Assembly: GCF_000827125.1 (NCBI RefSeq)
Contig: NZ_CP010311.1
Location: 1,302,001 to 1,366,000 of the forward strand
Reading direction: 5' to 3'
DNA: 64,000 bases
Source: Geoalkalibacter subterraneus
GTDB lineage: Bacteria > Desulfobacterota > Desulfuromonadia > Desulfuromonadales > Geoalkalibacteraceae
Each line of letters opens with the position of its first letter. The stretch's first letter is position 1. Both the position numbers and the translations under genes were made by a program. The notes beneath the pieces are model-generated. The model was not told the DNA's origin. It saw only the letters and a list, made by a program, of their open reading frames with translations, and did not search any database. Shown one piece after another: positions 26,997 through 63,012 of the stretch.

Positions 26997-27073
<77 letters not shown>

Positions 27074-27083
27074 TTTTTTCAAA

Positions 27084-27160
<77 letters not shown>

Positions 27161-27196
27161 TTTGTGCCGTGCCAGGCGGTGATTTGAAGTTTGTGA

Positions 27197-27226
27197 TTGA
27201 CAAACCGCGAAACGCTTGGCTAGTAT
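27197..27226 (+). promoter_or_regulatory. Sigma-70 promoter for tRNA-His
   Basis: TTGACA (27197-27202) and TAGTAT (27221-27226) are 18 bp apart, 23 bp upstream of the tRNA-His gene. Confidence 0.65.
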
Positions 27227-27249
27227 CTGTTTTCGTTTTCACTATCATG

Positions 27250-27325
27250 GTGGGTGTAGCTCAGTTGGTAGAGCACTGGATTGTGGCTCCAGTTGTCGTG
27301 GGTTCAAATCCCATCACTCACCCCA
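27250..27325 (+). tRNA. tRNA-His (anticodon GTG)
   Basis: Acceptor GTGGGTG/CACTCAC, anticodon stem CTGGA/TCCAG around loop TTGTGGC, T-loop TTCAAAT and encoded CCA. The extra G at 27249 pairs with the discriminator C at 27322, the G-1:C73 identity element of histidine tRNA. Confidence 0.95.
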
Positions 27326-27337
27326 AGTAATAAGATG

Positions 27338-27370
27338 GGCCCGCTTCGGGTTAACGGGGCGGGCCTTTTT
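27338..27370 (+). terminator. Intrinsic terminator after tRNA-His
   Basis: GGCCCGC (27338-27344) pairs with GCGGGCC (27359-27365), followed by five T. Confidence 0.8.
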
Positions 27371-27510
27371 CATGATGCGGCGCGAATCACGATTCGATCG
27401 CGACCCGACCCAGGCATCAGCATGGCGGAAGAGGCTGTTTGCTGATTGGGTCTTTTCCTCCAGGGTTCCTTTGTTCTTGCCAACCCTTTTGAAAAAATCC
27501 TTCGTTCTGC

Positions 27511-27593
27511 GCGAGAGTGGCGGAATTGGCAGACGCACTGGATTTAGGATCCAGCGGGCAACCGTGGGGGTTCGACTCCCCCCTCTCGCACCA
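27511..27593 (+). tRNA. tRNA-Leu (anticodon TAG)
   Basis: 83-nt class II tRNA with acceptor GCGAGAG/CTCTCGC, anticodon stem CTGGA/TCCAG around loop TTTAGGA, a long variable arm, T-loop TTCGACT and encoded CCA. Confidence 0.95.
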
Positions 27594-33907: not shown

Positions 33908-33984
33908 GGGGCTGTAGTAGAGTCGGTTACAACGCCGGCCTGTCACGCCGGAGGTCGCGGGTTCGAGTCCCGTCAGCCCCGCCA
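33908..33984 (+). tRNA. tRNA-Asp (anticodon GTC), copy 1
   Basis: 77-nt cloverleaf with acceptor GGGGCTG/CAGCCCC, anticodon stem CCGGC/GCCGG around loop CTGTCAC, T-loop TTCGAGT and encoded CCA. The D-stem GTAG/CAAC contains an A-A mismatch. Confidence 0.95.
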
Positions 33985-34003
33985 TTCCATTTTCTCGATA
34001 TGT

Positions 34004-34079
34004 GGGCGAATAGCTCAGCTGGGAGAGCATCGGCCTTACAAGCCGAGGGTCACAGGTTCGAGCCCTGTTTCGCCCACCA
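34004..34079 (+). tRNA. tRNA-Val (anticodon TAC)
   Basis: 76-nt cloverleaf with acceptor GGGCGAA/TTCGCCC, anticodon stem TCGGC/GCCGA around loop CTTACAA, T-loop TTCGAGC and encoded CCA. Confidence 0.95.
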
Positions 34080-34100
34080 CTTTTAAAATTTATTGACCCA

Positions 34101-34177
34101 GGGGCTGTAGTAGAGTCGGTTACAACGCCGGCCTGTCACGCCGGAGGTCGCGGGTTCGAGTCCCGTCAGCCCCGCCA
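34101..34177 (+). tRNA. tRNA-Asp (anticodon GTC), copy 2
   Basis: Identical over its full 77 nt to the copy at 33908-33984, including the D-stem A-A mismatch. The three genes Asp-Val-Asp are evenly spaced and end in one terminator, so they form one transcript. Confidence 0.95.
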
Positions 34178-37452: not shown

Positions 37453-37541
37453 TCACAGTATAAAAACACCCTTTGCCAAGTGGCCGCGCAGGCCGGGAAT
37501 TAGGTTTTCCTTTAGTTGGGCGATGTGGTATTTTCTGGCCC

Positions 37542-38750
37542 ATGCCAACGTTTAGGTGCAAAATCGGATTGGCCGATGGCCGGGTGGTCGAAAAGGACTT
37601 CGATGCCCCCAACCGGCAGCTGCTGAGAGACAATCTCGAAGAGCAGGGTTTTTATGTCTTTTCCATCAAAAAAGATCTCCTGAGATTTTTTTCTTTCAGT
37701 AATGCCGGCGGCGGGCGCCTCTCCGGACAGCGGTTTCTGTCTTTCAATCAGGAGCTGCTGGTGCTGATCCGCTCGGGATTGCCGATTCTTCAGGTACTCG
37801 ATACCCTGATGGAGCGCATGGAATCGCCTGCAGTGCTGGCTGTTCTGCGCCAGGTGCGTGAAGACGTCAAGGGGGGGGCTTCCCTCTCCGACGCATTTGA
37901 AAAATTTCCGAATTATTTCCCTTATCTCTACATTGCTTCGATTCGGGCGGGCGAAAGAACCGGTGACCTGCCTGTTACGCTGGCTCGCTACCTCGAATAC
38001 CAGCGCCGCATGGAAGCGATCAAGGCGCGCATTCGCAGTGCTTCGTTCTACCCGGCTTTTCTCACCGGTGTGGTAACGGTGGTCGTGTTGTTCCTGATGG
38101 TCTGGGTGGTGCCGCGTTTTACTTCTATCTATGCCGATGCGGACGTGGAACTGCCGTTAATGACCCGCATCGTGATCGGCGCCGCCGAGGGGATGGTGAG
38201 CTATCTGCCGGTGGTCCTGGTTGTGTTGCTCCTCCTTGGAGTCGCTGCTAGAATCTTTCTTTGCTCTGAAAAGGGGCTCCTTCTGCGCGATCGGCTTCTG
38301 CTGCGACTTCCTTTCTTCGGGCGCCTTTTGAGTGATTACGCTATTTCGAGTTTCTGCCGTACCTTCAGCACGACCCTTTCCGGCGGTATTCCCGCTGTCG
38401 AGGCGATGCGTATGTCGAGGGCGACTCTGAATAACCGAGACCTTGAGACGCGTATGCTCGACGCCGTGCGTCGGGTGGAGGAGGGGGTGGCGATTGCGCC
38501 GTCTTTTGAAAAAGCTGGTTTTTTCCCCCCTGTTGCCTTGCGCATGATCGGTGTGGGAGAAACCACCGGTGCGTTGGCGGAGATGCTGACCGAAGTGTCT
38601 GATTACTATGAAATGCAGGTCGGGGGGCGTCTCGACAAACTGACGACTCTGGTAGAGCCAGTCATGATGCTGGTGATGGGGGTTTTGATCGGCGGCATTG
38701 TGCTCGCCATGTATTTTCCTATCTTCCAGCTTGCAGGGACCGTAGGTTAG
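37542..38750 (+). CDS. gspF: Type II secretion system inner-membrane protein GspF
   Basis: 402-residue polytopic platform protein of type II secretion or type IV pilus machines. Two T2SF domains (about 45-170 and 255-380) with the motifs GLPILQVLDTL, GASLSDAFEKFP and the C-terminal VEPVMMLVMGVLIGGIVLAMY, plus three membrane helices. I start at ATG 37542 (MPTFRCKIG), the usual GspF beginning; an earlier in-frame ATG at 37473 is less likely. The gene order gspF-gspE opens the cluster. Confidence 0.9.
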   Translation: MPTFRCKIGLADGRVVEKDFDAPNRQLLRDNLEEQGFYVFSIKKDLLRFFSFSNAGGGRLSGQRFLSFNQELLVLIRSGLPILQVLDTLMERMESPAVLAVLRQVREDVKGGASLSDAFEKFPNYFPYLYIASIRAGERTGDLPVTLARYLEYQRRMEAIKARIRSASFYPAFLTGVVTVVVLFLMVWVVPRFTSIYADADVELPLMTRIVIGAAEGMVSYLPVVLVVLLLLGVAARIFLCSEKGLLLRDRLLLRLPFFGRLLSDYAISSFCRTFSTTLSGGIPAVEAMRMSRATLNNRDLETRMLDAVRRVEEGVAIAPSFEKAGFFPPVALRMIGVGETTGALAEMLTEVSDYYEMQVGGRLDKLTTLVEPVMMLVMGVLIGGIVLAMYFPIFQLAGTVG

Positions 38751-38762
38751 GATGGCTGCCGC

Positions 38763-40484
38763 GTGAAATATGAACGTAAGAAAATCGGTGAAATCCTGGT
38801 GGAGTTGAGCGCGATCGCTCCTGCCCAGGTCGAATTGATTCTGCAGCGCATGCCGGCCTCAGCCCGGAAATTTGGAGAAACGGGGGTCGATGAGGGGCTT
38901 TACAGTGAAGATGTCCTGGCCCAGGCTCTCGCTCTGCAGTTTCATCTTGATTATGTCGATCTTGGTACCGTTCCTCCCGACGCACACCTCCTGGCTTCGC
39001 TGCCGGTAGGACTTGCCCACAAGCATCAGTTTCTCCCGCTCGATACCCGTGAAGACGCGCTGGTGGTGGCAATTCATGATCCCACCGATATTGAAAACCT
39101 CGATCAACTGGAGATGATACTCGACAGGCCCCTTATCCTGAAGGTTGCGCCGAAAAGCCGTATTTTACGCCTGCTGGAGAGCAATGAAGGGTCGCAGCGC
39201 GTTCTGCGCGAGGCTTCCGAGGATTTCAAGCTTCAGCTGGTCAAAGAAACGGAAAAAGGCGAGGAGGTTCTCTCCCTCGATAAGCTCACTGCCGATACCA
39301 GCCCGGTCATCCGCCTGATCGATTCGACCCTCTACGACGGGCTCAAACGGCGGGCCAGCGACATCCACATCGAAACGGGCCTCGACGGGGTTGCCATCAA
39401 GTACAGGGTCGACGGTGTACTTTACCAGGCGACCGAACCCCTTGATACACGTTTTCAGGGGCCGATCATCTCACGCCTCAAGGTCATGAGCGAACTCGAT
39501 ATTTCCGAGCGGCGCATCCCGCAGGACGGACGTTTCAAGGTGCGGGTCGGCGGTCGCTCCATCGATTTTCGCGTTTCCATCATGCCGAGCATCTTCGGCG
39601 AGGATGCCGTTATCCGTATTCTCGACAAGGAATCCATCGCTGCCGACTTCAAGGGGTTGAGTCTCGAGGTTCTCGGCATTACGCCACGGGAAATCTCTCG
39701 TTTCCGCCGCAAGATCCGCGAGCCCTACGGCATGGTTCTGGTCACAGGCCCCACCGGCAGCGGCAAAACCACCACCCTTTATGCGGCCCTCACGGAGATC
39801 AATTCCCAGGAGGAAAAGATCATTACCATTGAGGATCCGGTGGAGTATCAGCTAAAAGGAATTGTGCAGATCCCCGTCAATGAAAAAAAGGGCTTGACCT
39901 TCGCCCGCGGCCTGCGTTCCATTCTGCGGCACGATCCCGACAAGATCATGGTCGGGGAAATCCGCGATCCGGAAACGGCGCAGATTGCGGTTCAGTCTGC
40001 GCTGACCGGACACCTGGTTTTCACCACCGTGCATGCCAACAACGTGTTTGATGTTCTGGGTCGCTTTCTCCACATGGGGATCGATCCCTATAATTTCGTC
40101 AGCTGCCTGAACATGGTTCTGGCTCAGCGCCTGGTACGCCGCATCTGCCCCCACTGCCGAAGGCCGGCAAAGGTCGAAGCGGATGAAATTGCCGAGGCGG
40201 GACTTGACCCCGACCGTTATCGGGATCATGAGTTTTTCGAGGGAGAGGGTTGCAAAGAGTGCCGTGGCATGGGATTTCTCGGCCGCAGCGCCATTGTTGA
40301 GATGCTCGAACTCAGTGATGACATGCGCGAGTTGATTTTGACCAAAGCACCGGTCACGCAGCTCAAAAAAGCGGCATCGGCGGCAGGGACGGTCTTTCTG
40401 CGTGAGGCGGCCGTTGAAAAAGTCCTCGAAGGCGTATCCACTTTTCGCGAAATCAACCGCGTAACTTTTGTGGAAAGGGGTTGA
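38763..40484 (+). CDS. gspE: Type II secretion/pilus assembly ATPase GspE
   Basis: 573-residue cytoplasmic ATPase powering pseudopilus assembly. N-terminal MshEN-like domain (about 1-150), Walker [13 protein letters not shown] (about 325), Asp box, Walker B IMVGEIRDPETA, His box LVFTTVHANN, and the zinc-binding CPHC...CKEC near 465-500. GTG start at 38763. It is followed at once by the PilM-like gene, so the cluster is one operon. Confidence 0.93.
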   Translation: MKYERKKIGEILVELSAIAPAQVELILQRMPASARKFGETGVDEGLYSEDVLAQALALQFHLDYVDLGTVPPDAHLLASLPVGLAHKHQFLPLDTREDALVVAIHDPTDIENLDQLEMILDRPLILKVAPKSRILRLLESNEGSQRVLREASEDFKLQLVKETEKGEEVLSLDKLTADTSPVIRLIDSTLYDGLKRRASDIHIETGLDGVAIKYRVDGVLYQATEPLDTRFQGPIISRLKVMSELDISERRIPQDGRFKVRVGGRSIDFRVSIMPSIFGEDAVIRILDKESIAADFKGLSLEVLGITPREISRFRRKIREPYGMVLVTGPTGSGKTTTLYAALTEINSQEEKIITIEDPVEYQLKGIVQIPVNEKKGLTFARGLRSILRHDPDKIMVGEIRDPETAQIAVQSALTGHLVFTTVHANNVFDVLGRFLHMGIDPYNFVSCLNMVLAQRLVRRICPHCRRPAKVEADEIAEAGLDPDRYRDHEFFEGEGCKECRGMGFLGRSAIVEMLELSDDMRELILTKAPVTQLKKAASAAGTVFLREAAVEKVLEGVSTFREINRVTFVERG

Positions 40485-40489
40485 TCCTC

Positions 40490-41392
40490 GTGCTGCGTCG
40501 TCTTTTTCCCGGGCTGAGAATTTCGCAGGAAGGGGTGCATGCCGTGGCCTTGTGCCGCCGAAGGAAGGTGCACCATCTCCGCGCCGCCCGCCGCCTCAGC
40601 TTCGACACGGGAGTGGTGGTTCCTTCCCGGCGTGAACCCAATGTTAAACGGCCGGATGCATTTGTCGAGGCACTGACCGATGTGCTGTGCCCCATGACGG
40701 GGCGCGAAGATCGCATTGCCCTGTCGCTGCCTGATGCCAGCGGACACATTGTCCTGACGCAATTGGACACCCCCTTTAAAAGTCGCGAGGAGGGGCGCGA
40801 TATCTTGGGTTGGCAACTCAAAAAAAATCTACCTGGAGAATGGAAAGACATTCACCTTGACTTTCAGGTGCTACGCCGTGAGGATTCAGGGCGACAACAA
40901 GTCCTTGCAGCGATGATCGATCGCGCCGTGCTGAGCCAGTATGAAGAGTTGGTCATCCGGGCCGGCTTCCACGCGGCCCAGGTCGGATTTCACTCCCTTG
41001 ATCTGTACGCCTATTATCGCTCCAGACTGGAGATGGGGGGAGATTTTGTTCTGATCGGCGTTGAAGGATCGACGCTGAGCGTTGAGATCTTTCAGGACGA
41101 CGTTCCGGTTTTTTACCGCGTGCGCTCCATTATCGAGGATGCCGACCAGGTTTTTCAGGAACTCAACCGCAGTCTCTCCGGCGTGCGATCCGCTCAGCGG
41201 GGCAGGGTGTTTCTCCATAGCGATTGGACGGAAAAAGACTCTCTCAGTCAGGTTCTTAAAGCACTTTTCGATAAGGAACCGGTCGTGCTCGACCCTCAGT
41301 TGTCCCGCATGGTTGAACCCGAACACCAACAGCAATTTACTGCAGACGCAAAACTGGCATCAGCGATCGGCGCCGCCGAAAGAATGATGTGA
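40490..41392 (+). CDS. PilM-like cytoplasmic actin-fold component
   Basis: 300-residue protein in the position of PilM/GspL. The middle region (KSREEGRDILGWQLKKNLPG) and the later VLIGVEGSTLSVEIF resemble the PilM actin-like ATPase family, which links the ATPase to the membrane PilN-PilO complex. The start is uncertain: GTG 40490 just after gspE, or a TTG at 40481 overlapping its stop. The divergence is large, so the assignment rests partly on gene order. Confidence 0.7.
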   Translation: MLRRLFPGLRISQEGVHAVALCRRRKVHHLRAARRLSFDTGVVVPSRREPNVKRPDAFVEALTDVLCPMTGREDRIALSLPDASGHIVLTQLDTPFKSREEGRDILGWQLKKNLPGEWKDIHLDFQVLRREDSGRQQVLAAMIDRAVLSQYEELVIRAGFHAAQVGFHSLDLYAYYRSRLEMGGDFVLIGVEGSTLSVEIFQDDVPVFYRVRSIIEDADQVFQELNRSLSGVRSAQRGRVFLHSDWTEKDSLSQVLKALFDKEPVVLDPQLSRMVEPEHQQQFTADAKLASAIGAAERMM

Positions 41393-41399
41393 GCCGGCC

Positions 41400-41960
41400 A
41401 TGAAGATTTCGCTCAACCTTGCAACTCGCACCTATGTCAACCGGCGTGCTCTCTATGCTTTGTATGCCCTGCTGGCGGTGTTGCTGGTCTTCTGGCTCGG
41501 CCTCAGTCTTTCCTCCTGGCAGAAGGACCATACTGAAATCGGCCGGCTTGAGGAGCAGTTGCAGCAGGTTCGCGAACAACTCGGCGGGTTGGGGGACGAA
41601 GGGGCCCCCCCGTTTGATTCAACCGATTATCAGGTTCTGCTTGATGATCTTGCTTTCGCCGACGATATTCTGGCGCGGGATGCTTTCCGCTGGACCCGGC
41701 TTTTTCTGCGGTTGGAGCAACTTCTGCCCGAGGGAGCTTCTCTGCGCAGCTTGCGTCCCGAACATCGCGAACGGGCACTGAGCCTGACGGCCGTTGCCCG
41801 GGGAAATGAACAGATGAATCGTTTCATCGATCAGTTGATGGCGTCTGAAGATTTGAATCAGGTCTATCTGCTGAGCCAGGAAAGAGCCGAAGTGACAGAC
41901 CCTGCCGGGCAAAAACGGCCCGCAGTGCGATTCTCCCTCCTTATTCAGGAGGCTTTCTGA
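41400..41960 (+). CDS. PilN-like inner-membrane assembly protein
   Basis: 186 residues: a short cytoplasmic N terminus with ISLNLATRTYVNRR, the conserved PilN segment that docks into PilM; one membrane helix (about 20-40); a coiled coil; and a periplasmic ferredoxin-like domain. The ATG is 8 bp after the PilM-like gene, and the stop overlaps the next start by one base. Confidence 0.78.
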   Translation: MKISLNLATRTYVNRRALYALYALLAVLLVFWLGLSLSSWQKDHTEIGRLEEQLQQVREQLGGLGDEGAPPFDSTDYQVLLDDLAFADDILARDAFRWTRLFLRLEQLLPEGASLRSLRPEHRERALSLTAVARGNEQMNRFIDQLMASEDLNQVYLLSQERAEVTDPAGQKRPAVRFSLLIQEAF

Positions 41961-42529
41961 TGGCCCGCGCTTCACTCCTCGCAGCTTTTTGGCGGCAGAA
42001 CCGTCTCGTTCCGGTTCTGCTCCTTGTGCTGCTTTTGATCAACACTGGCCTGCAAGTGTGGCGGGTTCGGATGGTGCGGCCGCAGGTTGCTCAGCTCCGG
42101 CAAAACCTTGAGCGGCAACAGCAGGAGCTGGAGCGGATGAGACAGCTCGGAGCCCGACAGGATTCCCCTGAAGCCGTTTACCGGCGCGGGCGCGAAGATC
42201 TTTCCAGGTTTTACGCAATGATCCCGGCCAACAGCGACCTGACCGGTTTGATTGAAGAACTTTTTAATATGGCCCACAGGGCGGGTCTGGAAATTGATCG
42301 CATCGGTTATGACCCACAGAAACTGGAGGAGCGGCCTCTTCTGGCGTACAGCCTGATGTTTTCCGTCAGCGGCAATTATGAGCAGCTCAAAAGTTTTGTG
42401 TATGACATTGAGACTTCGTCCCGGCTGATTACTTTGGACGAGATCACTCTGAGTGGCGCTGGCGGGGGGGATCGCCCCGTTTTGCTCAACCTGCGGTTTA
42501 CGACCTATTTTCATGCGGATCCAACATGA
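41960..42529 (+). CDS. PilO-like inner-membrane assembly protein
   Basis: 189 residues: one membrane helix (about 17-33), a periplasmic coiled coil (LRQNLERQQQELERMRQ) and a C-terminal PilO-type domain with YSLMFSVSGNYEQLKSFVYDIE. It pairs with the PilN-like protein. Its stop overlaps the next start (ATGA). Confidence 0.8.
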   Translation: MARASLLAAFWRQNRLVPVLLLVLLLINTGLQVWRVRMVRPQVAQLRQNLERQQQELERMRQLGARQDSPEAVYRRGREDLSRFYAMIPANSDLTGLIEELFNMAHRAGLEIDRIGYDPQKLEERPLLAYSLMFSVSGNYEQLKSFVYDIETSSRLITLDEITLSGAGGGDRPVLLNLRFTTYFHADPT

Positions 42530-43224
42530 CTCGTCAGGGGAAAATTCTTCTTGTCTGTTTGGTTGGTCTCCTCTTGGCACTGGGCTATTCCTACTTCCGG
42601 GCGCCGGAGCAGCAGCGGGTCGTGCGCACTGAAGAGGAGACTGCAAAAGGGCGCGTGAAGCCGACCAAAGCCTCAACCCCCCGGGAAGGGAAATCGGGGG
42701 AGGATAGTTTGCCGCGTCTTCGACTCGAACCCGACCCGGGTCGGGAAGACCGGGGCGGTGAGTATGTTCAAACGGGAAAGGATCTCTTTGCGCCCCTGTA
42801 TTCCGGCGGCGTGAAAACACCGCCGCCTCCCGCCCCTGCCGAAATATCCCCTGCGGTCATGGGGACTGAACCGGAAGAAAATCCGGCAGATTTGATGCCG
42901 GCGGTTTCTGCGGTTCCGGCGTTTGAATCCGCAGCTCAGCCCGCCCGTTTTGAGGTGCTGGGTTATCTGGAGATTGAAAATCGCCGGGTGGTTTTTCTTG
43001 AAACGGGTGGAGAAGTTTTCCTGGCTCGAAGGGGGGAGTCGTTCGGCGATGATTTCCGGGTGGTGGAAATGAACGACGAACGTCTGGTTGTTTCACAGCG
43101 GGGCGTGCCCCGAACCATCACCCTTGAACTGGAGGGAGAACAGGGTGTGATCGGGTTTGGGAGCGCCGCACCCTTTTCGGATAAGGGACGCAATGTTGTT
43201 CCCGAAACGCGACGTTTCCGGTAA
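42526..43224 (+). CDS. PilP/GspC-like periplasmic linker protein
   Basis: 232 residues: an N-terminal membrane anchor (about 8-22), a long Pro/Glu-rich linker (about 30-130) and a compact C-terminal domain (about 140-215; FEVLGYLEIENRRVVFLE, VFLARRGESFGDDFRV) resembling the PilP or GspC homology region that meets the secretin. Overlap with the upstream gene shows co-translation. Whether PilP or GspC is the better name is open. Confidence 0.72.
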   Translation: MTRQGKILLVCLVGLLLALGYSYFRAPEQQRVVRTEEETAKGRVKPTKASTPREGKSGEDSLPRLRLEPDPGREDRGGEYVQTGKDLFAPLYSGGVKTPPPPAPAEISPAVMGTEPEENPADLMPAVSAVPAFESAAQPARFEVLGYLEIENRRVVFLETGGEVFLARRGESFGDDFRVVEMNDERLVVSQRGVPRTITLELEGEQGVIGFGSAAPFSDKGRNVVPETRRFR

Positions 43225-43347: not shown

Positions 43348-45957
43348 ATGAAGATGAACTTGACCAAGCCGTTGTGCCGAGTCGTTGCCTTTCTGGCGGT
43401 TTTGATGCTGCTGGCCTCGGGTTGTGCGCCTGGTACCCGGCACTTTGAGCAGGGCCGGCAGCTAATGGCCGAGCAGAAATATGACAAAGCGGTGGAATAT
43501 TTCACCTTGGCTCTACAGGAAGAGAAACAGAACAATTATTATCGCCTCAAGCTGCAGGAAGCCCGCATGCAGGCCGCCAAGTTTTATTTTGAGCAGGGGC
43601 TGCGGGCGAAAGAAGCTGGCCGCACGGCCGACGCCATGGAAAAATTCCAGGTGGCGCTGGCCTTCAACCCCACCATGGAAACGGCCGCGCAGGAGCTGCA
43701 GCGCGTTCGCCGCATGGTTCAGGCTCAAACACTGGTCGAAGATGCCGAGCAGTTTTTCCGTGCACGCAAATATCTGCAGGCCAAACGTATTCTCAACCGC
43801 GTGCTGGAGATCGACCCCGGGAATGAACGCGCTCAGGCTCTCATGGAAAAAGTTGCGGATGCGAAGTTGACCGTGATTGACGGTCAGGAGCTTGAGATCG
43901 CCTCCGGCAAGCCGATCACCTTGAAATTCAATGAAGCCAACCTGCGGGATGTCTTCCAGATACTGTCTCAGCTTTCAGGGATCAACTTCCTTTTCGATGA
44001 AGATCTCAAGGAAGAAAAGGTCACCGTTTATCTCGAAGAGGCCACCTTCGCACAGGCCCTTGAACTGTTGATGAAGATGAACGGTCTCGACAAGAAAGTT
44101 CTCAATCCCAAGACTATTCTGCTCTACGCCAAGACCAAGGATAAGGAAAAACAGTACCAGGACCAGATCATCCAGACCTTCTATCTTTCCAATATCGATG
44201 CGAAGAAGGCCGTCAACCTGCTGCGCACCATGCTGCAGCTGCGCAAGATCTTTGTCCATGAGGAGCTCAATGCTCTGGTCATCCGCGACACCCCGGATGT
44301 GGTGCGGTTGTCGCAGCAGGTCCTCCAGGCCGCGGATCGCGCCGACTCGGAAGTGGTCTTCGATGTTGAGTTGATCGAAGTCAGTCGCGGGGATGATACG
44401 ACGCTCGGCGCTCAGCTCAGTGCCTACTCCGTTGGCCTGGGCATGGCCAACGAGGGGGGGGACAACATCGTATCGAGCAGTCTGAGTTCAGGTACCGAAA
44501 CGGGAAATCTGGTCAGCAGCGCCAGTTCACTGGAATCCTTCTACACCCTGCCGTCGGCGACCTTCGATTTCGCCAAGACTCTCACCGACACCGAATTGCT
44601 GGCCAGCCCCAAAATCCGGGTGAAGAACAAGGAGAAGGCCAAGGTGCACATTGGGACGCGCGAGCCGGTGATCACGGTCACGATCAACGGCGACAACCGC
44701 TCCGACAATGTTCAGTACGTCGATATCGGCGTGAAGCTGAATGTCGAGCCAAATATCCAACTCGACGATCATGTCGTTACCAAGCTCAACCTCGAAGTCA
44801 GCAGTATCTCCGATCGTCGCACCCTGGAGAGCGGCACCTCGGTTTTCACCATTACGACCACCAATGCCGAAAGCGTGCTGAGTCTCAAGGAAGGCGAACG
44901 CACGGTCATTGGCGGGTTGATCCGCGATACGAAAAGCTCCACCACCAAGAGCATACCGGGGCTTGGGGATCTGCCGCTGGTGGGACGTTTGTTTACTCAC
45001 CAAACCCAGAATGATCAGAAAAGGGAGATTCTGCTCTCGATTACACCCCATATTGTCAGAAATGTTGAGATGCCCCTGGCCAATGTCGCGACCATCTGGT
45101 CCGGGGGAGAAGACGAACTCAAGGCCGGGCCAAACTTCGGGTCGTTCCTGCCGGATTTTGCGCCCGAGCTGGAGAAGGGCAATCCTTCGCCTGTCCCGCG
45201 GCTGACTAAACCGTCCGAGCCCGATCTGCCGCGTCCCGAGTCTGCCCGTCAGGACGAAGCCGACCGGCAGGAGAGCCCCATGGAGGGTGGCAAGCCTCAG
45301 GATGGAACGCTTCCAGAGGATGTAGAGGGGTCTCAGGCTTTGTCTTCGCGCCAGGTCGAAGAGAGTGAGGTGTCGACTATCCCTGAGGAAGTTAGGCAAG
45401 AAGAGCGGTTCGCTACCGCTTTGCCCCGGGGTGAAGCCCCGCAACCGGCCGAGCCGCCATCCGCAGAACCCTGGATTGCTGCTTCCACCGATGCGGAGAT
45501 TGAGCGCGTCGACCTGCCGCCACTGGAAATTGCCGCGCCGCAGACCCCGGGCCGACTCTTTTTCACGGGTCCGGAACTGGTCGAAACGGGGAAAACCCTG
45601 ACTCTGAGTCTCAACGTGGCCGAGGTTGACAGCCTCTACAGTGCGCCCCTTTATGTCACCTATGATCCGGAAAAGTTTGAATTTTTGCGAGCGCGCGAGG
45701 GGGATTTTCTCAGACAGGGGGATCGCCCCACGATTTTCACCACCAGCGTTTCCGCCGAACCGGGGCTGATCATCGTCGGCTACAAGCAGGGCACCGGCGG
45801 AAGCGGGGCGAGCGGATCGGGCGAGCTGTTCAACCTGGAGATGCGTGCCAAAACCCCCGGAACGACGGAAATCGGCTTGAAGCGCATCAACTTCCGAGAT
45901 CCTGGCGGAGAGCGGCTGCAGATTGAGGCTTCATCCAAAATTGTCGAGATCAGATGA
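43348..45957 (+). CDS. gspD: TPR-secretin-cohesin fusion lipoprotein (GspD-like)
   Basis: 869 residues forming the outer-membrane pore. Order: lipoprotein signal with lipobox LASGC (Cys about 26), tetratricopeptide-like repeats (about 30-175), an STN/N0-like domain (FNEANLRDVFQILSQLSGINF, about 193), NolW/N1 regions, the secretin barrel domain (VELIEVSRGDDT to ILLSITPHIVRN, about 345-575), a Pro/Glu-rich linker (about 590-720) and a C-terminal cohesin-like beta domain (about 725-869; LFFTGPELVETGKTLTLSL to SSKIVEIR). A cohesin on a secretin is unusual and suggests a docked substrate or surface partner. The ATG at 43348 is followed by a second ATG at 43354. Confidence 0.9.
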   Translation: MKMNLTKPLCRVVAFLAVLMLLASGCAPGTRHFEQGRQLMAEQKYDKAVEYFTLALQEEKQNNYYRLKLQEARMQAAKFYFEQGLRAKEAGRTADAMEKFQVALAFNPTMETAAQELQRVRRMVQAQTLVEDAEQFFRARKYLQAKRILNRVLEIDPGNERAQALMEKVADAKLTVIDGQELEIASGKPITLKFNEANLRDVFQILSQLSGINFLFDEDLKEEKVTVYLEEATFAQALELLMKMNGLDKKVLNPKTILLYAKTKDKEKQYQDQIIQTFYLSNIDAKKAVNLLRTMLQLRKIFVHEELNALVIRDTPDVVRLSQQVLQAADRADSEVVFDVELIEVSRGDDTTLGAQLSAYSVGLGMANEGGDNIVSSSLSSGTETGNLVSSASSLESFYTLPSATFDFAKTLTDTELLASPKIRVKNKEKAKVHIGTREPVITVTINGDNRSDNVQYVDIGVKLNVEPNIQLDDHVVTKLNLEVSSISDRRTLESGTSVFTITTTNAESVLSLKEGERTVIGGLIRDTKSSTTKSIPGLGDLPLVGRLFTHQTQNDQKREILLSITPHIVRNVEMPLANVATIWSGGEDELKAGPNFGSFLPDFAPELEKGNPSPVPRLTKPSEPDLPRPESARQDEADRQESPMEGGKPQDGTLPEDVEGSQALSSRQVEESEVSTIPEEVRQEERFATALPRGEAPQPAEPPSAEPWIAASTDAEIERVDLPPLEIAAPQTPGRLFFTGPELVETGKTLTLSLNVAEVDSLYSAPLYVTYDPEKFEFLRAREGDFLRQGDRPTIFTTSVSAEPGLIIVGYKQGTGGSGASGSGELFNLEMRAKTPGTTEIGLKRINFRDPGGERLQIEASSKIVEIR

Positions 45958-45964
45958 CCCTGAC

Positions 45965-46453
45965 ATGAAACTTACGCGGTTGGCTGCAAAATCGGCGGGC
46001 CTGACCTTCATCGAGCTGGTGCTGGCCATGGCTATTCTGTCTGTCCTGGCCGCTGTGGCTCTGCCTTTAGCGGAGATAAGCGTCAAGCGCAGCAAGGAGA
46101 TCGAACTTCAGCGCGCTCTGCGCGATATCCGCGAGGCCATCGATGCCTACCATGATGACTGGGTGCGTGCGGTGGCGGAGCAGAAGATCACGCCGAGTGT
46201 CGACGATACCGGATACCCTGAAGAGCTGGAGGAACTGGTTGATGGAAAGGAGTGGGGGGATCTTTTCTCCTTTAAGCGCCGTTATCTGCGACGCATCCCC
46301 CGCGACCCCTTCGATCGTTACGGCGAGGGCTGGGGGCTGCGTTCCTACGAGGATGATCCCGATTCGATGGTCCACAGCGGCAGCGATATCTATGATGTTT
46401 ATTCTCTCAGCGACGGCATCGCCCTGGATGGGACGCCCTACAACACCTGGTAG
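45965..46453 (+). CDS. Type II secretion pseudopilin
   Basis: 162-residue pseudopilin. The class III signal is processed before LTFIE (AG-LTFIELVLAMAILSVLAA), with the conserved Glu at +5, so it is a substrate of prepilin peptidase. The C-terminal globular part has the DPFD and DG motifs found in GspG-like minor pilins (calcium-binding region). I start at ATG 45965, eight bases after the secretin stop. Two pseudopilin genes are in tandem. Confidence 0.88.
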   Translation: MKLTRLAAKSAGLTFIELVLAMAILSVLAAVALPLAEISVKRSKEIELQRALRDIREAIDAYHDDWVRAVAEQKITPSVDDTGYPEELEELVDGKEWGDLFSFKRRYLRRIPRDPFDRYGEGWGLRSYEDDPDSMVHSGSDIYDVYSLSDGIALDGTPYNTW

Positions 46454-46471: not shown

Positions 46472-46876
46472 GTGCGCATGACCCCCGAATACGGTCGGGC
46501 CGGTTTTACCCTGATCGAACTGATGATCGTCATGACGATCCTGGGTATTCTGATGACCATCGCCGTGCCGAGTTACAAGCACAGCGTCATCAAGGCCCGC
46601 GAAACGGCACTGGCGGAGAACCTCTACCAGATGCGTCAGGCGATCGACGCCTATTTTGCCGACCGCGCCCGCTATCCCGACTCTCTGGACTCCCTGGTGG
46701 AGGCGCGTTACCTGCGGGCGGTTCCTGACGACCCGTTTACCCAGTCTGCGGATACCTGGGAGACCGTTCCCCCTGAGCCTCTTGAAGATGGAGAGCTGGC
46801 AGAAGGCGGGGTGTTCGATGTATTCAGCGGCAGCGATATGGTGGGATTGAACGGTGTGCCGTACAGCGAGTGGTGA
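46472..46876 (+). CDS. Type II secretion pseudopilin (GspG/OxpG-like)
   Basis: 134-residue pseudopilin with the processing site AG-FTLIELMIVMTILGILMTIAVP and the C-terminal YLRAVPDDPF and FDVFSGSD motifs of the major pseudopilin GspG. GTG 46472 is used as start; ATG 46478 is an alternative. It is the last secretion gene before ftsE. In Geobacter sulfurreducens a gene of this type (OxpG) is needed to export an outer-surface multicopper protein. Confidence 0.88.
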   Translation: MRMTPEYGRAGFTLIELMIVMTILGILMTIAVPSYKHSVIKARETALAENLYQMRQAIDAYFADRARYPDSLDSLVEARYLRAVPDDPFTQSADTWETVPPEPLEDGELAEGGVFDVFSGSDMVGLNGVPYSEW

Positions 46877-46922: not shown

Positions 46923-47588
46923 ATGATTCAGATCTACAATGTCTGTAAAAATTATTCGAAGGACAGCGCCGCCCTCGACCAGATCACCCTCAAGATCCCG
47001 AAAGGGGATTTTGTATTTATCACCGGGCCGTCAGGCGCCGGAAAATCGACCCTTCTCAAGCTCCTTTATGCCGGCGAGCGCCCCAACCGCGGGCAGATAC
47101 TGATTGACGGACGCAACGTCACACGCATGAGCGGGCGCCAGGTCCCTTTTCTGCGGCGCAAGATGGGAGTCGTCTTTCAGGATTTCAAACTGATTGCCGG
47201 GCGCACCATCTATGAAAATGTGGCTTTCGCACTTGAAGTCCAGGGGCGCAAGCGCTATGAAATCAGCAAAAAGGTCTATGCCGCCCTTAAAAACGTGGGG
47301 CTTGAGCACAAGCTCAACCGCTACCCTCTGGAACTCTCGGGGGGAGAACAGCAGCGTGTTGCCGTGGCCCGGGCGCTGGTCGTCGACCCGATGATCCTCA
47401 TTGCCGATGAGCCCACCGGCAATCTCGACCCGGAAACCACTATCGAGTTGATGGAACTGTTCAAAAGCGCCAATGCCCGGGGGTCGACGGTCCTGATGGC
47501 GACGCATGACCGCGACCTGATCCGGCGCTATCCCCGCCGCATCGTCACCCTGGAGAACGGGCGTCTGACGGAAGACCGCGAGGTCTGA
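46923..47588 (+). CDS. ftsE: Cell division ATP-binding protein FtsE
   Basis: 221-residue ABC ATPase that works with FtsX at the septum to switch on peptidoglycan amidases. Walker A GPSGAGKST (about 37), signature LSGGEQQRVAVARAL (about 139), Walker B LIADEPTGNLD. It starts just after the pseudopilin gene and is followed by ftsX after about 30 bp. Confidence 0.95.
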   Translation: MIQIYNVCKNYSKDSAALDQITLKIPKGDFVFITGPSGAGKSTLLKLLYAGERPNRGQILIDGRNVTRMSGRQVPFLRRKMGVVFQDFKLIAGRTIYENVAFALEVQGRKRYEISKKVYAALKNVGLEHKLNRYPLELSGGEQQRVAVARALVVDPMILIADEPTGNLDPETTIELMELFKSANARGSTVLMATHDRDLIRRYPRRIVTLENGRLTEDREV

Positions 47589-47620
47589 GGGCGCAGGGCT
47601 GGTTGGAGAGAGTAGAGACT

Positions 47621-48514
47621 GTGGACACTTTTCGTTATTTTATCCGCCGCGCGGTGCGCAACATGCGCCAGAGCCCTTTTCTCTGCATCGCTGCAGTGGC
47701 CACCACTGCGCTGGCGCTTGCGATCGTCGGTTTTTTCGCCATTATCGTTTTCAACGTCGAGAAGCTGACCTCCCGTTGGGGGGAGGAGGTTGAAGTCATT
47801 GCCTATCTCGACGAGGTGCCCGAAACCGAGGTGCTGCAAAAACGGATCGCCCAGATCGAGGCCATGCCCGAGGTGGATCGGGTCAACCTGGTGACGCGGG
47901 CTCAGGCTTTCGAGCGTTTTCGCGAACGCCTAGGCCCCCATGCGGAGCTTCTTGACGGCGTGGACCCCGAAATTCTCCCGGCTTCGCTGGAGATTTCGCT
48001 AAGCCCCGATCTACGGGACCGCCAAGGCGTGGATCAGCTTGTGGCAAGCCTCAAGCAGCAGGCCGGTCTCTCCGACCTGCGCTACGGTCACGAATGGCTG
48101 GCCAAGTTCGAATCATTCATGTCCCTGGTGAGGCTGGTTGGCGTCATCCTTGGGGGCTTTCTGCTTTTTGCCGCGCTGTTCATTGTCTCCAACACCATTC
48201 GCCTGACCCTGTTCGCGCGGCGGGAAGAGCTTGAAATCATGGCCCTGGTCGGCGCGACTCCTTTATTCATCAAGATCCCTTTCATTATCGAGGGGGCGGT
48301 GCAGGGGGTGGCAGGTGGCCTGCTGGCATTGACCGGGGTGTACCTGGTTTTTGCCCTTTTTCTGCAACAGGGGCTTCAGACCGTCCTTCTTGCGGCAGGG
48401 GGGCAGCAGGTGGTTTTTCTCCCCTCCGCTTATCTGGTGGGTTTGATTCTGCTGGGATTGCTGCTTGGCATCGGCGGCAGCCTCGGCGCGCTGCGCAAGT
48501 TCGTGCGGATCTGA
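47621..48514 (+). CDS. ftsX: Cell division protein FtsX
   Basis: 297-residue membrane partner of FtsE with four helices (about 20-45, 165-190, 220-240 and 265-290) and a periplasmic loop (about 50-160) that contacts the EnvC-type activator. I start at GTG 47621, with GGAGAG upstream; a TTG at 47603 would add six residues. It is co-transcribed with ftsE and envC. Confidence 0.92.
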   Translation: MDTFRYFIRRAVRNMRQSPFLCIAAVATTALALAIVGFFAIIVFNVEKLTSRWGEEVEVIAYLDEVPETEVLQKRIAQIEAMPEVDRVNLVTRAQAFERFRERLGPHAELLDGVDPEILPASLEISLSPDLRDRQGVDQLVASLKQQAGLSDLRYGHEWLAKFESFMSLVRLVGVILGGFLLFAALFIVSNTIRLTLFARREELEIMALVGATPLFIKIPFIIEGAVQGVAGGLLALTGVYLVFALFLQQGLQTVLLAAGGQQVVFLPSAYLVGLILLGLLLGIGGSLGALRKFVRI

Positions 48515-48518
48515 AGTT

Positions 48519-49667
48519 ATGCCCCTTTACCTGCGCATCTTCATCATTCTTTGCTTTGTTTTTCTGACTTCCCTCTCGGTTTTCGGCCAGGCGCAGGACC
48601 TGGCTGAGACGCGTCAAACGCTGGAGCGCATTCAGGAGCGCATCAAATCCACCCGCTCCGATCTCGAACAGATAAAATCTCATTCAGGCTCTCTGCGGCG
48701 GCAGCTTGAAGCCGTGCGCGACGATCTGGAACGACTCAACCGGCAACTGGGCGAGCTGGAGCGTTCGCGGGAGGATCTGGCCCGACGCATCAAGGACAAC
48801 CAACGTCAGGCTGATGAAGCGCAGAGGCGCATCGAGGATTTACGCGCCAAGGTTGAGCAGCGGCTGGTGGTTTTGTACAAGGAAGGGGAAAGCGGCCCCT
48901 TGAGCCTGATCTTCTCTCCCCAGTCTCCGGCCCGTCAGGCCGAACAGTACGATTACATGGCGCGCATTCTTGAATATGACCGCGAACTGCTGGAGCAGTT
49001 TCGCGCAGATGTGCGTGAGCTGGAACAGGTACGTTCACGCCTGCTCGCTTTGCGCGATGAGCAGCAGCAGGTGCTTAATGCAACACGGCAGAACCGCGAT
49101 ACCGCTCGGGATGCGGCGCGATTGCAGGAGCAGCTTCTTTCTGCCGCCCGCCAGGAGCAAAAAGCGCTCAGCAGCCAACTGGATGAACTCAAGGATCAGG
49201 CCAGGGGATTGTCGGAACTGGTCAAAAAACTTGAATCGCAGCAGGCCCGGGCGTATACTGACAGCGGCAATTTCGTTGATCTTAAAGGGCATTTGCCCTG
49301 GCCGGTGGAGGGCCGGGTCACCTACGGTTTCGGGCAGCAGAAGCACCCGCAGCTCGGCACCACCTTCGACAGTCACGGCATCGAAATTGCCATCGATTCA
49401 GCTCAACCCGTTAAAGCGGTGGCCGATGGTCGCGTCATCTACGCCAACTGGTTCAAGGGGTACGGCAATCTGCTGATCCTCGATCATGGCAACAGTTATT
49501 ATACCCTGTATGCCCAGAATGCCCGGTTGACCAAAGGGGTCGACGACGTGGTCGCGCGCGGTGAAACCATCGGCTTCTCCGGGCTGCCAGGCAGCAATGG
49601 GATCTATTTCGAAATCCGTAAGGGAGGAACTCCCCAGGATCCCGGTCCATGGCTACGTAAAAGGTAA
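48519..49667 (+). CDS. envC: Murein hydrolase activator EnvC
   Basis: 382 residues: signal peptide (FIILCFVFLTSLSVFG), a long coiled coil (about 30-240) and a C-terminal M23/LytM domain (about 275-380). The LytM domain is degenerate: the usual HPGID is SHGIE and the HxH site reads YAQN, so it cannot hold zinc. That fits a non-catalytic activator of AmiB/AmiC-type amidases, controlled by FtsEX. The start is four bases after ftsX. Confidence 0.9.
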   Translation: MPLYLRIFIILCFVFLTSLSVFGQAQDLAETRQTLERIQERIKSTRSDLEQIKSHSGSLRRQLEAVRDDLERLNRQLGELERSREDLARRIKDNQRQADEAQRRIEDLRAKVEQRLVVLYKEGESGPLSLIFSPQSPARQAEQYDYMARILEYDRELLEQFRADVRELEQVRSRLLALRDEQQQVLNATRQNRDTARDAARLQEQLLSAARQEQKALSSQLDELKDQARGLSELVKKLESQQARAYTDSGNFVDLKGHLPWPVEGRVTYGFGQQKHPQLGTTFDSHGIEIAIDSAQPVKAVADGRVIYANWFKGYGNLLILDHGNSYYTLYAQNARLTKGVDDVVARGETIGFSGLPGSNGIYFEIRKGGTPQDPGPWLRKR

Positions 49668-49766
49668 ATTTTTCCTGTCGCCGCACCGTTGTTCCGCTTC
49701 TATCCACCCGGTTTATGCGAATAAACCGGGTTCGCCATTTCTCAACGCTTGATCGGAGGTCATTTG

Positions 49767-51071
49767 ATGCCCCCACGTAAACGTTCCTCAGGTTTGCTCA
49801 TCATTCTGGCGGTTGTGCTTCTCGGTGGATTTTCCTTTGGAAATTTCAGCCGCTGTGCGCAGGCCGACAGTACGAAGGAATATCAGGAGCTGGATCTTTT
49901 CACCGATGTCCTGGCGCTGGTGCGCAAAAGCTATGTCGAAGAGGTGCCGCTGAAGGATCTGATCTACGGTGCCATCAATGGCATGCTGGCTTCCCTTGAT
50001 CCTCACAGCTCCTTTCTGCCGCCGGATATGTACCAGGAAATGAAGATCGATACCCGCGGTGAATTCGGCGGACTCGGCATCGAGATCACCATCCGCAACG
50101 GCATCCTCACCATCGTCTCGCCGATTGAGGATACCCCGGCCTTCCGCGCCGGTCTGCAGGCTGGAGACGAGATCGTTAAAATTGAAGACCGGATGACCAA
50201 AAACATGACCATTATGGACGCGGTCAAACTGATGCGCGGCAAGCCCGGCACCGACATTACCATCTCCGTCATGCGGGAAGAGTTCGACAAGCCGAAGGAA
50301 TTCACCCTGACCCGCGAAATTATCAAGGTCCGTAGCGTCAAGGCCCGCACCCTTGAAGACGGGTACGGTTATATCCGCCTTGTCCAGTTTCAGGAGCGTA
50401 CCGCCGACGACCTGCGTGCCGCACTGAAGCAGATTCACAAGGAAAATCCCGATGGTCTGGCCGGGTTGATTCTCGATTTGCGCAACAACCCGGGCGGCCT
50501 TCTCGATCAGGCCGTAGCGGTGTCTGATGTCTTTCTCTCCGAGGGGTTGATCGTTTATACCGAGGGGCGCGACCAGAACAGCCATTTGCGGTTCAGCGCG
50601 CGGGGCAACGGGTCCGAGGCCGATTACCCGCTGGTTGTGCTGATCAACGGCGGCAGTGCCAGCGCCTCGGAGATCGTGGCCGGCGCCCTGCAGGATCACA
50701 AGCGCGGCATTGTGATGGGGACGCCGAGCTTCGGCAAAGGGTCGGTGCAGACAATCATCCCGCTTGGCGATGACTCAGGCCTGCGTTTGACCACGGCCCG
50801 TTACTATACCCCCTCGGGTCGCTCGATCCAGGCCCAGGGCATTCAGCCGGATATTGAAGTGCGCTCCGCCACCCTGACGGAAAAGGCCGAAGGGTTTGCG
50901 TTCCGGGAGGAGGATCTCGCCAAGCACTTCGAATCATCTACGGAAGATAACGGTAAAACCGCTGATTTTGAATTGGATGAAGAGTCGCGCAAAGATTATC
51001 AGTTGATGCGTGCTCTTGATCTTCTCAAAGGGTGGCGTATTCTTAAAAACCTTGATCGGCAGGCCGCCTGA
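49767..51071 (+). CDS. ctpA: Carboxyl-terminal processing protease
   Basis: 434-residue exported S41 serine protease. N-terminal signal or anchor (about 10-28), PDZ domain (about 90-165; GGLGIEI and GLQAGDEIVKI) and the S41 domain with the Ser-Lys dyad in GGSASASEIVAGAL (Ser about 306) and PSFGKGSVQ (Lys about 331). ATG 49767 follows CGGAGG. In the relatives it lies in the same order after envC and before the deacetylase. Confidence 0.94.
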   Translation: MPPRKRSSGLLIILAVVLLGGFSFGNFSRCAQADSTKEYQELDLFTDVLALVRKSYVEEVPLKDLIYGAINGMLASLDPHSSFLPPDMYQEMKIDTRGEFGGLGIEITIRNGILTIVSPIEDTPAFRAGLQAGDEIVKIEDRMTKNMTIMDAVKLMRGKPGTDITISVMREEFDKPKEFTLTREIIKVRSVKARTLEDGYGYIRLVQFQERTADDLRAALKQIHKENPDGLAGLILDLRNNPGGLLDQAVAVSDVFLSEGLIVYTEGRDQNSHLRFSARGNGSEADYPLVVLINGGSASASEIVAGALQDHKRGIVMGTPSFGKGSVQTIIPLGDDSGLRLTTARYYTPSGRSIQAQGIQPDIEVRSATLTEKAEGFAFREEDLAKHFESSTEDNGKTADFELDEESRKDYQLMRALDLLKGWRILKNLDRQAA

Positions 51072-51093
51072 ATCAGGATAACAACCTTTTTTC

Positions 51094-51119
51094 GAAGGGG
51101 GGCTTGACCCCCCTTTTCG
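51094..51119 (+). other. Hairpin between ctpA and the deacetylase gene
   Basis: CGAAGGGGGG pairs with CCCCCCTTTTCG around a CTTGA loop. It lies 9 bp before the next ATG and would cover its ribosome site, so it could damp translation or cause partial termination. Confidence 0.4.
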
Positions 51120-51127
51120 CAGGTTTT

Positions 51128-52423
51128 ATGGCACCCGCTAAAAAGAAAGCGCCGAGCAAGGCGTCCTCCGGCAAGACCCCGCCCAAGACCCCGCCCAAGA
51201 AAACGGCGAAGAAAGCGGCCCAGAAGGCGGCAAAGAAAGCGCCGCAGAAGACGACGCCCGCCGCTTCTGGCGGAAAGTCACCCCGAAGCAGGAACCCTAA
51301 GGTCACAGCAGGGGAACTCAAGATCTGGGTGGCGCTGCTGTGCGTTGTGATTTTCCTTGTGGCCGCAGTGGCGCTTCTGCAAAAAGCACGCAAGGTTTTT
51401 GACCCGGGGGACGCCGACCCTGTTCCCGTTGCATCCACCGAGGTTGAAAAACTCGGTTTCGAGCAGGCCCGCACCATTTTCGAGCAGGCCATGGATGAGA
51501 TCGTCGATGGCCCCTCTGTCGAACGTACGCGCAGCACTGACAGCGTCGCCTATCGGATTCTGAACGAGGATTTGTCGCAGGAGGAATTCACCCATCTCGA
51601 AGCCGTGCTGGGCGCCAGTCCGGGACAGTGGCGGCTCAACCGTCCGCAAACCGGGCATCTCGTTGCCAGGGCGGAGGACAGGTGGCAGTTCGAACTGCTG
51701 TTCGTAACGCCTCCCTCCCCGCCGCCTTTGGAGAACGTTGAGCAGGGCCCGCGGGTGGCCATCATCATGGATGATATGGGCAATGACACCTTCAGCACTC
51801 GGGAGCTGCTGGCCATCGACCTCGAGGTGACGTTTGCCGTTCTGCCGGAAACCGAATCTTCAACTGAGACAGCGCGACTGGCTCATGCACAGGGGCGCGA
51901 GGTGATGCTGCACCTGCCCATGGAGCCGATCGGCTATCCTCAACCCAATCCGGGACGAAACGCCCTGCTGATCAGCTTGTCCGCCGAGCAGATCCGGGCG
52001 CGCATGGCTTCCTATCTTCAGCAGGTACCCCATGCCGTCGGCGGCAACAATCACATGGGGTCGCGCTTTACCCAGCATGAGGAGGGGATGCGGGTGGTGC
52101 TCGATGAGCTGGCCCGGCATAACCTCTTTTTTGTCGACAGCCTGACCACCAACGGTTCGGTCACCCGTCGCTTGGCCGCGGATCGCGGTGTGCCTTTCGG
52201 GCGTCGCAGCCTTTTTCTGGATAATGATGCTGATGTGGAAAAAGTCCGCCAGCAGATCCGCAAGCTGATCAGCCTGGCGTTGCGAGAAGGAGAGGCGGTA
52301 GGAATCTGTCACCCCTATCCGGAAACGATGGAAGCGCTACGGCGCGAACAGGAGTCTTTCGCCGCCGCAGGCGTCAAGGTGGTTCCCATGTCGCATCTGG
52401 TAAGGTCGCTGCCGCGATCCTGA
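51128..52423 (+). CDS. YibQ-type divergent polysaccharide deacetylase
   Basis: 431 residues: a highly basic Lys/Ala/Pro-rich cytoplasmic N terminus (about 1-65), one membrane helix (about 72-92), then a periplasmic region and a divergent polysaccharide-deacetylase (PF04748-like) domain (about 210-425) with VAIIMDDMGND, VMLHLPMEP, GGNNHMGSRFT and GICHPYPET. The function of this family is not established; it regularly follows envC and ctpA in cell-wall clusters, which suggests a part in septal peptidoglycan turnover. The poly-Lys tail is unusual. Confidence 0.88.
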   Translation: MAPAKKKAPSKASSGKTPPKTPPKKTAKKAAQKAAKKAPQKTTPAASGGKSPRSRNPKVTAGELKIWVALLCVVIFLVAAVALLQKARKVFDPGDADPVPVASTEVEKLGFEQARTIFEQAMDEIVDGPSVERTRSTDSVAYRILNEDLSQEEFTHLEAVLGASPGQWRLNRPQTGHLVARAEDRWQFELLFVTPPSPPPLENVEQGPRVAIIMDDMGNDTFSTRELLAIDLEVTFAVLPETESSTETARLAHAQGREVMLHLPMEPIGYPQPNPGRNALLISLSAEQIRARMASYLQQVPHAVGGNNHMGSRFTQHEEGMRVVLDELARHNLFFVDSLTTNGSVTRRLAADRGVPFGRRSLFLDNDADVEKVRQQIRKLISLALREGEAVGICHPYPETMEALRREQESFAAAGVKVVPMSHLVRSLPRS

Positions 52424-58143: not shown

Positions 58144-58372
58144 ATACTTACTTTGATATAAGGAGCTCTCCTTTTTTTAATGATCTCCCTAGGCTCATCT
58201 AAGGTTTTTCGAAGGGCAAAATAAGGGATTCCCTGATTGTTTTCTTGTATATGGTGGAGTAGGGTGGGAAGAAAGAATTGGGTTGTGAGACTTATTGTGT
58301 CACGTTGCTATGAGGTAATTTCTTCATAGAAGAAATCCGAAGGTGAAATATGATGTTCTGAGAGAGGGGATT
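58144..58372. other. AT-richer region before the cas operon
   Basis: No gene, tRNA or CRISPR repeat is visible. It should contain the cas promoter, but I see no box set good enough to name. Base composition is clearly lower in G+C than in the flanking genes. Confidence 0.35.
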
Positions 58373-60565: not shown

Positions 60566-60574
60566 CTTGGTTGA

Positions 60575-63009
<2,435 letters not shown>

Positions 63010-63012
63010 ACC

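Follow-up and report, generated by a model that had tools for sequence, protein, structure and literature searches.

A cohesin domain on the Pul-type secretin of Geoalkalibacter subterraneus, a possible docking arm of the secretion pore

The genome of Geoalkalibacter subterraneus harbours, in a stretch of 64,000 nucleotides that was analysed as a whole (the window), a gene for a secretin with an additional domain at its C-terminus. The original prediction, made from the sequence, read this domain as a cohesin, a dockerin-binding module, which could hold exported proteins or other machine parts at the outer membrane. The locus raises the question of whether the secretin tail is a cohesin, on which side of the membrane it lies, and what it would hold there.

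The open reading frame in question was predicted to encode a secretin with N-terminal TPRs, and the Pfam matches to TPR_2, Secretin_N and Secretin agree with this. The following features were assigned to it.

43348-45957, plus strand: TPR secretin (Pul/GspD-like) with C-terminal cohesin, 869 amino acids
43348-43425, plus strand: predicted signal peptide with the probable lipobox LASG-C26, from a reading of the sequence
43426-43887, plus strand: TPR region, residues 27-180 (Pfam TPR_2, E 1.3e-9, and TPR_19)
43921-44133, plus strand: N0/STN domain, residues 192-262 (Pfam STN, stretch 212-262, E 9.3e-7)
44173-44346, plus strand: Secretin_N domain, residues 276-333 (Pfam, E 1.5e-9)
44578-45060, plus strand: secretin barrel domain, residues 411-571 (Pfam Secretin, E 1.4e-38)
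45094-45147, plus strand: conserved motif right behind the barrel, IWSGGEDELKAGPNFGSF (IWSGGED...GPNFGSF), residues 583-600, from the alignment of relatives
45163-45537, plus strand: variable Pro/Glu-rich linker, residues 606-730 (17.5% identity and 58% coverage among relatives)
45538-45954, plus strand: cohesin domain, residues 731-869, reaching the C-terminus (Pfam, AF2 model, fold and profile searches)

The protein is likely a lipoprotein secretin. Its domains (Secretin, N0 and Secretin_N) and the T2SS cluster around its gene are those of a T2SS/Pul secretin. It scores below every secretin equivalog cut-off, including PilQ (149.1 against 284.35 bits) and GspD TIGR02517 (156.9 against 351.35 bits), and as it falls under the latter it is read as an atypical T2SS (Pul) secretin and not classed as a classical GspD. 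The closest relative found, at 67%, belongs to a Geoalkalibacter MAG (L057). The motif behind the barrel is missing in Geobacter-type secretins.

The tail matches PF00963 (Cohesin) at residues 746-844 with an E value of 5.5e-11 and 43.3 bits, where the cut-off is 24.1; PF00963 matches nothing else in the 3.72 Mb genome. The last 143 residues, modelled with AF2 from a 69-row alignment, form a beta-sandwich with a mean pLDDT of 95.5. The best 50 matches of this model in the PDB were all cohesins, both with Foldseek (E 1.4e-10 to 4.5e-7) and with VIA-align (Z 12.0-17.9), the latter led by 2xdh, an archaeal non-cellulosomal cohesin (Z 17.9, rmsd 1.6 A over 125 residues). A search with a profile built from 69 relatives found only cohesins among the PDB sequences at E <= 0.01. 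The comparison of the single sequence with the PDB was weak (best E 0.56), as it would be if a generic beta-sandwich had wrongly been called a cohesin; nonetheless, profile and fold matches hit cohesins alone, and the fold comparison refutes this hardly credible reading. Since Pfam, the model and the fold matches all identify a cohesin, the secretin tail is a true cohesin, far beyond chance. The prediction had placed the cohesin in the last 145 residues, close to the folded part at about residues 731-869 (behind the linker of about 125 residues), and had named an HMM search as a check and a structure prediction without a cohesin match as a refutation; the PF00963 score and the structure comparison, which excludes a non-cohesin fold, both support it.

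The cohesin tail is near-universal on the secretins of the class, and no local oddity. Species genomes were scanned and yielded 80 secretin loci from Desulfuromonadales and Geobacterales, and the cohesin was present at full coverage in all 68 full-length relatives from these orders that were aligned with the window secretin. Mean identity to the window protein among relatives of the Desulfuromonadales type is 41.7% in the cohesin, compared with 29.9% in the TPRs and 17.5% in the linker. A cohesin is missing from a single full secretin, that of L098 (the same gene as L252, G009:C113), which ends within the linker and is immediately followed by the pseudopilin gene. PF00963 was matched in 83 of the 136 genomes of the own order, Desulfuromonadales, nearly always in secretin-sized frames, and this is an undercount, as genome G044 has a secretin cohesin without a PF00963 match. 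G044 was considered as a cohesin-less genome and rejected as a false negative, because a protein search aligns its full secretin including the cohesin. Many of the own-order genomes without a match have no close secretin at all. Outside the class, cohesin-bearing secretins were found in two genomes of another class of the same phylum (L138, L139).

The secretin gene is surrounded by genes of a T2SS and of the cell envelope, as follows.

37473-38750, plus strand: GspF/PilC-like platform protein (T2SSF E 3.2e-56; GspF E 2.1e-95)
38763-40484, plus strand: GspE/PilB-like ATPase with MshEN domain (profile matches)
40481-41392, plus strand: PilM/GspL-like protein (PilM_2 E 3e-4, under the cut-off; TIGR01175 E 1.3e-7)
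41400-41960, plus strand: PilN-like protein (E 6.3e-10)
41960-42529, plus strand: PilO/GspM-like protein (PilO E 4.2e-12; GspM E 7.5e-9)
42526-43224, plus strand: probable GspC/PilP-like periplasmic protein, assigned by position and sequence with no family match
45959-46453, plus strand: pseudopilin, start codon uncertain (N_methyl E 3.2e-5)
46472-46876, plus strand: GspG-like pseudopilin (E 4.1e-13, under the equivalog cut-off; N_methyl E 1.1e-8)
46923-47588, plus strand: FtsE-like ATPase (ABC_tran E 3.4e-37), adjoining ftsX
47603-48514, plus strand: FtsX (FtsX_ECD E 1.6e-12)
48465-49667, plus strand: EnvC-like M23 peptidase, start codon uncertain (Peptidase_M23 E 2.6e-22)
49749-51071, plus strand: CtpA-like S41 protease (E 1.4e-59)
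51072-51103, no strand: 32-base gap, empty here and the site of a cohesin-Ig-dockerin gene in some Geobacterales (synteny with L114 and L122)
51104-52423, plus strand: divergent polysaccharide deacetylase (PF04748 E 3.1e-81)

The Pul T2SS of Geobacteraceae is required to secrete the multicopper oxidase OmpB and adjoins cell-division genes (PMC3543383). Similarly, T2SS genes stand beside cell-division genes in the window, and the gene order is that of Geobacterales relatives. In contrast, the literature searched on the Pul T2SS holds no mention of a secretin cohesin or a dockerin partner. Elsewhere in the window, two tRNA clusters are present at 26997-27593 and 33908-34177 (Pro, Arg, His, Leu; Asp, Val, Asp), and Type I-C CRISPR-Cas genes (cas3, cas5d, csd1 (cas8c) and cas7, by Pfam) lie toward its end at 58343-63873.

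No dockerin was found within the 64-kb window, as the original prediction had also stated. A first order-wide PF00404 search gave the impression of no dockerin at all, which was overturned by a match in the own genome and by its relatives. This candidate, G000:C1:936637-937500, encodes about 288 residues with a signal peptide, a Pro-rich stretch, a domain of about 90 residues and two dockerin repeats, with two Ca2+ (EF) loops as in a two-repeat dockerin. With its neighbours it reaches 34.3 bits with PF00404, over the cut-off, and in one protein-level run 22.2 bits against the cut-off of 22.9. Its gene lies far from the secretin gene. Each of the other five genomes of the family has a homolog. 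Two weak dockerin matches of the same genome, an RHS-repeat protein (L055) and an EF-hand membrane protein (L056), were read and rejected. The proteome search for dockerins that had been proposed as a check thus returned one exported candidate, which is conserved in the family and has relatives near the T2SS in several Geobacterales. With this PF00404 candidate, a dockerin partner is plausible; on the other hand, most own-order genomes with a cohesin have no detectable dockerin.

More distant homologs of the Ig-dockerin protein consist of a signal peptide, an own cohesin, a linker, an Ig-like domain and a dockerin, and are referred to here as adaptors. The N-terminal cohesin is kept in most of the Geobacterales members read. 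In the model, the middle domain folds into an Ig-like sandwich of the invasin/filamin type and the dockerin part has low confidence; the PDB matches of this model are filled by the Ig domain. A profile of the adaptor tail matches EF-hand proteins and the dockerins 2y3n_B and 5lxv_B over nearly its full length, and PF00404 was matched at E <= 0.1 in eight out of ten selected Geobacterales tails. Of 36 sequences, 35 have the second Ca2+ loop and the remaining one is truncated; the first loop is intact only in some. The Ig-dockerin profile was found in 117 of the 277 genomes of the class, of which 10 belong to the 136 of the own order and 107 to the 141 of other orders, chiefly Geobacterales. Few own-order genomes are added to these ten by PF00404 or by the second dockerin profile.

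Among the Geobacterales loci, 17 extend 7.5 kb or more downstream of the secretin, and four of these (L114, L121, L122, L133) have the adaptor gene 5-6 kb away in that direction, on the strand of the secretin gene. At a chance rate of 0.0019 per genome, such linkage has a probability of 3e-8 for four independent cases and of 4e-6 if two related cases are counted once (three cases). The placement was read gene by gene in three of these loci: in L122 the adaptor gene has the S41 protease and the polysaccharide deacetylase as its immediate neighbours, in L114 it is placed one small gene further along, and in L133 it follows the M23 peptidase region. A deacetylase-like gene also follows the adaptor gene in G418 (L190), and linked places were found as well in G160 and G287. 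At another Geobacterales locus, the gene directly upstream of the cohesin-Ig-dockerin gene encodes an OmpB-like multicopper oxidase with InlB-type repeats (L201:2981-7477).

In two genomes, genes adjoining that of the adaptor encode large secreted proteins whose C-terminal part is a dockerin-like domain of about 70 residues with the pattern GDxNGDGxVxxADALxALQxAxG...GDVAPLVNGxPxPDGxIxxxDALxILRKxVGL. This second dockerin-like domain was found in 104 of the 277 class genomes, with 1-17 copies each, and only in four of the 136 own-order genomes; its profile gave no match in the own genome. In nearly all proteins read, the domain ends at most three residues from the C-terminus, and its carriers are Ig-, cadherin-, TSP3- or fibronectin-like, some with sub-threshold PF00404 matches. 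Examples of such adhesin-like proteins are L200:8363-11686 and L199:12663-16757, with many more at Geobacterales loci (L233-L249). Three of the four own-order genomes with the domain also have the adaptor (p 0.001). The domain is apparently a lineage-specific C-terminal tag in Geobacterales. Small lipoproteins with a cohesin-like C-terminal sequence (L200:7818-8354, L199:11464-12636) are encoded between the adaptor and the tagged genes; Pfam found no cohesin in them, and profiles gave no support.

The abundance of these large adhesin-like proteins in Geobacterales would suit a cohesin that reaches outside and retains secreted dockerin proteins on the cell surface. However, pilotins, which act from the periplasm, bind T2SS secretins at their C-terminal S domain (PMC9239104). 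Furthermore, in a secretin of the same family (L112:3937-6999) the cohesin is followed by an OmpA-type domain (E 3e-14), which points to the periplasm too, and no protein with the second domain was found in the own genome; retention at the surface is very unlikely. OmpA-type domains bind peptidoglycan. Because of the pilotin-bound S domain and this natural fusion, the secretin cohesin is probably periplasmic and would hold its partners on that side. The proposal that the cohesin holds exported proteins gains from its presence on a secretin and from a plausible dockerin partner; its outer-surface version loses ground, as the C-terminus is probably periplasmic.

Our preferred reading is that the cohesin is a docking arm on a flexible linker, one per subunit of the Pul pore, with a probability of about 0.48. 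The linker would leave the barrel on the periplasmic side, so that each secretin subunit holds out one cohesin in the periplasm. The dockerin of the exported Ig-dockerin protein would bind to it, presumably in a Ca2+-dependent way, and tie this protein to the ring. In Geobacterales, the adaptor's own N-terminal cohesin could in turn hold large dockerin-tagged secreted proteins. The resulting chain would be similar to the enzyme-scaffoldin-anchor chain of cellulosomes, but anchored on a secretion pore, and in the own genome it would be reduced to the secretin cohesin and the one Ig-dockerin protein.

The cohesin fold, the class-wide tail, the exported Ig-dockerin protein of the own genome and the cluster-linked adaptor in several Geobacterales were counted in favour of the docking arm. 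In cohesins of the Desulfuromonadales type, outward residues of the canonical dockerin-binding sheet differ from those of the other sheet (1.64 vs 2.77 bits, p 0.001; residues assigned as inward or outward by strand pattern, without coordinates). This more conserved dockerin-binding face suggests a partner on that face. Counted against the docking arm were the presence of the adaptor in 10 of 136 own-order genomes versus the Pfam cohesin in 83 of 136, the distance of the own dockerin gene, the low-confidence dockerin model, the differing CipA contact residues and the Geobacter-type cohesins, in which conservation is no higher on the canonical face than on the other sheet although the adaptor is common there. 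As for the contact residues, Asn37 and Asp39 of CipA, two type I contact positions, correspond to Ser and Pro in the window cohesin. A general co-occurrence of cohesin and dockerin in the own order was considered and dropped as not significant, their presence being uncorrelated (p 0.19).

Since most own-order genomes keep the cohesin without a detected dockerin, a dockerin-independent partner is nearly as likely. The cohesin would then be a structural module whose putative universal partner, such as a Pul component, a neighbouring subunit or peptidoglycan, helps to assemble or anchor the pore, and dockerin proteins would be later, patchy additions. This is consistent with a tail kept in genomes where three profiles find no dockerin, with the OmpA domain behind the cohesin in L112, with the wall-remodelling genes in the cluster, and with the conserved outer face in Desulfuromonadales, which implies a partner even without a dockerin. 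Other secretins are likewise fastened to the wall by additional domains or partners, such as the SPOR-like domain of LspD and GspB/OutB (PMC9239104). Nevertheless, a structural module leaves unexplained why a cohesin-Ig-dockerin gene stands in the same cluster in several Geobacterales and why the Ig-dockerin protein is kept in all six genomes of the own family.

An extension of the docking arm is doubtful. Here, Geobacterales and a few Desulfuromonadales would use a two-step cohesin-dockerin code, in which the C-terminal dockerin tag is read by a periplasmic adaptor that docks on the secretin ring, so that substrates would be chosen by a transferable tag; the window organism would have a reduced form.

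Cohesins outside cellulosomes are already known. Non-cellulosomal PF00963 cohesins such as those of Archaeoglobus fulgidus (2xdh) and Clostridium perfringens (2vo8) have the same fold and domain size, whereas here the cohesin forms the C-terminus of an outer-membrane secretin and is present once per pore subunit. Cellulosome anchoring joins enzyme-borne dockerins to the cohesins of a scaffoldin, whose X-dockerin binds a cell-surface cohesin. The parts described here resemble it in the anchored cohesin, the adaptor (cohesin, Ig-like domain and dockerin) and the large proteins with a C-terminal dockerin-like domain, but they are parts predicted from sequence, the anchor is a secretin, and the adaptor contains just one cohesin and, in many cases, one intact Ca2+ loop. 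This is no cellulosome: the own genome has a single cohesin, and the tagged proteins elsewhere are mainly Ig- or adhesin-like, with no sign of cellulose degradation. Legionella LspD carries a SPOR-like domain on the secretin, and the GspB/OutB scaffold ties the secretin to the wall (PMC9239104); these are likewise extra modules on or with a secretin for periplasmic attachment, but the cohesin has a different fold and sits at the opposite end of the protein.

Non-cellulosomal cohesins and this T2SS are known; apparently new are the cohesin on a T2SS secretin, its class-wide spread and the linked adaptor. These three were not described in the literature searched, and an earlier mention in Peer 2009 on non-cellulosomal cohesins is possible. 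How type II systems choose their substrates and hold folded proteins is an old open question, and by analogy the list of parts suggests that this pore may use a clasp to hold other proteins. With such a clasp on nearly every pore of this kind in a metal-reducing class, and candidate ligands encoded near it in some genomes, one form of the question is directly testable in Geobacter, where the Pul/OxpG system is required for OmpB export for Fe(III) oxide reduction. If the reading is true, cohesin-dockerin chemistry would extend from cellulose degradation to envelope machinery. Further cohesin matches were observed in the own order: cohesin and dockerin matches lie close together, off the secretin, at small separate loci in G028:C32 and G034:C1:881047-882040, and in one further genome a cohesin match (G047:C55:65192-65491) falls within an open frame that is 13,892 codons long.
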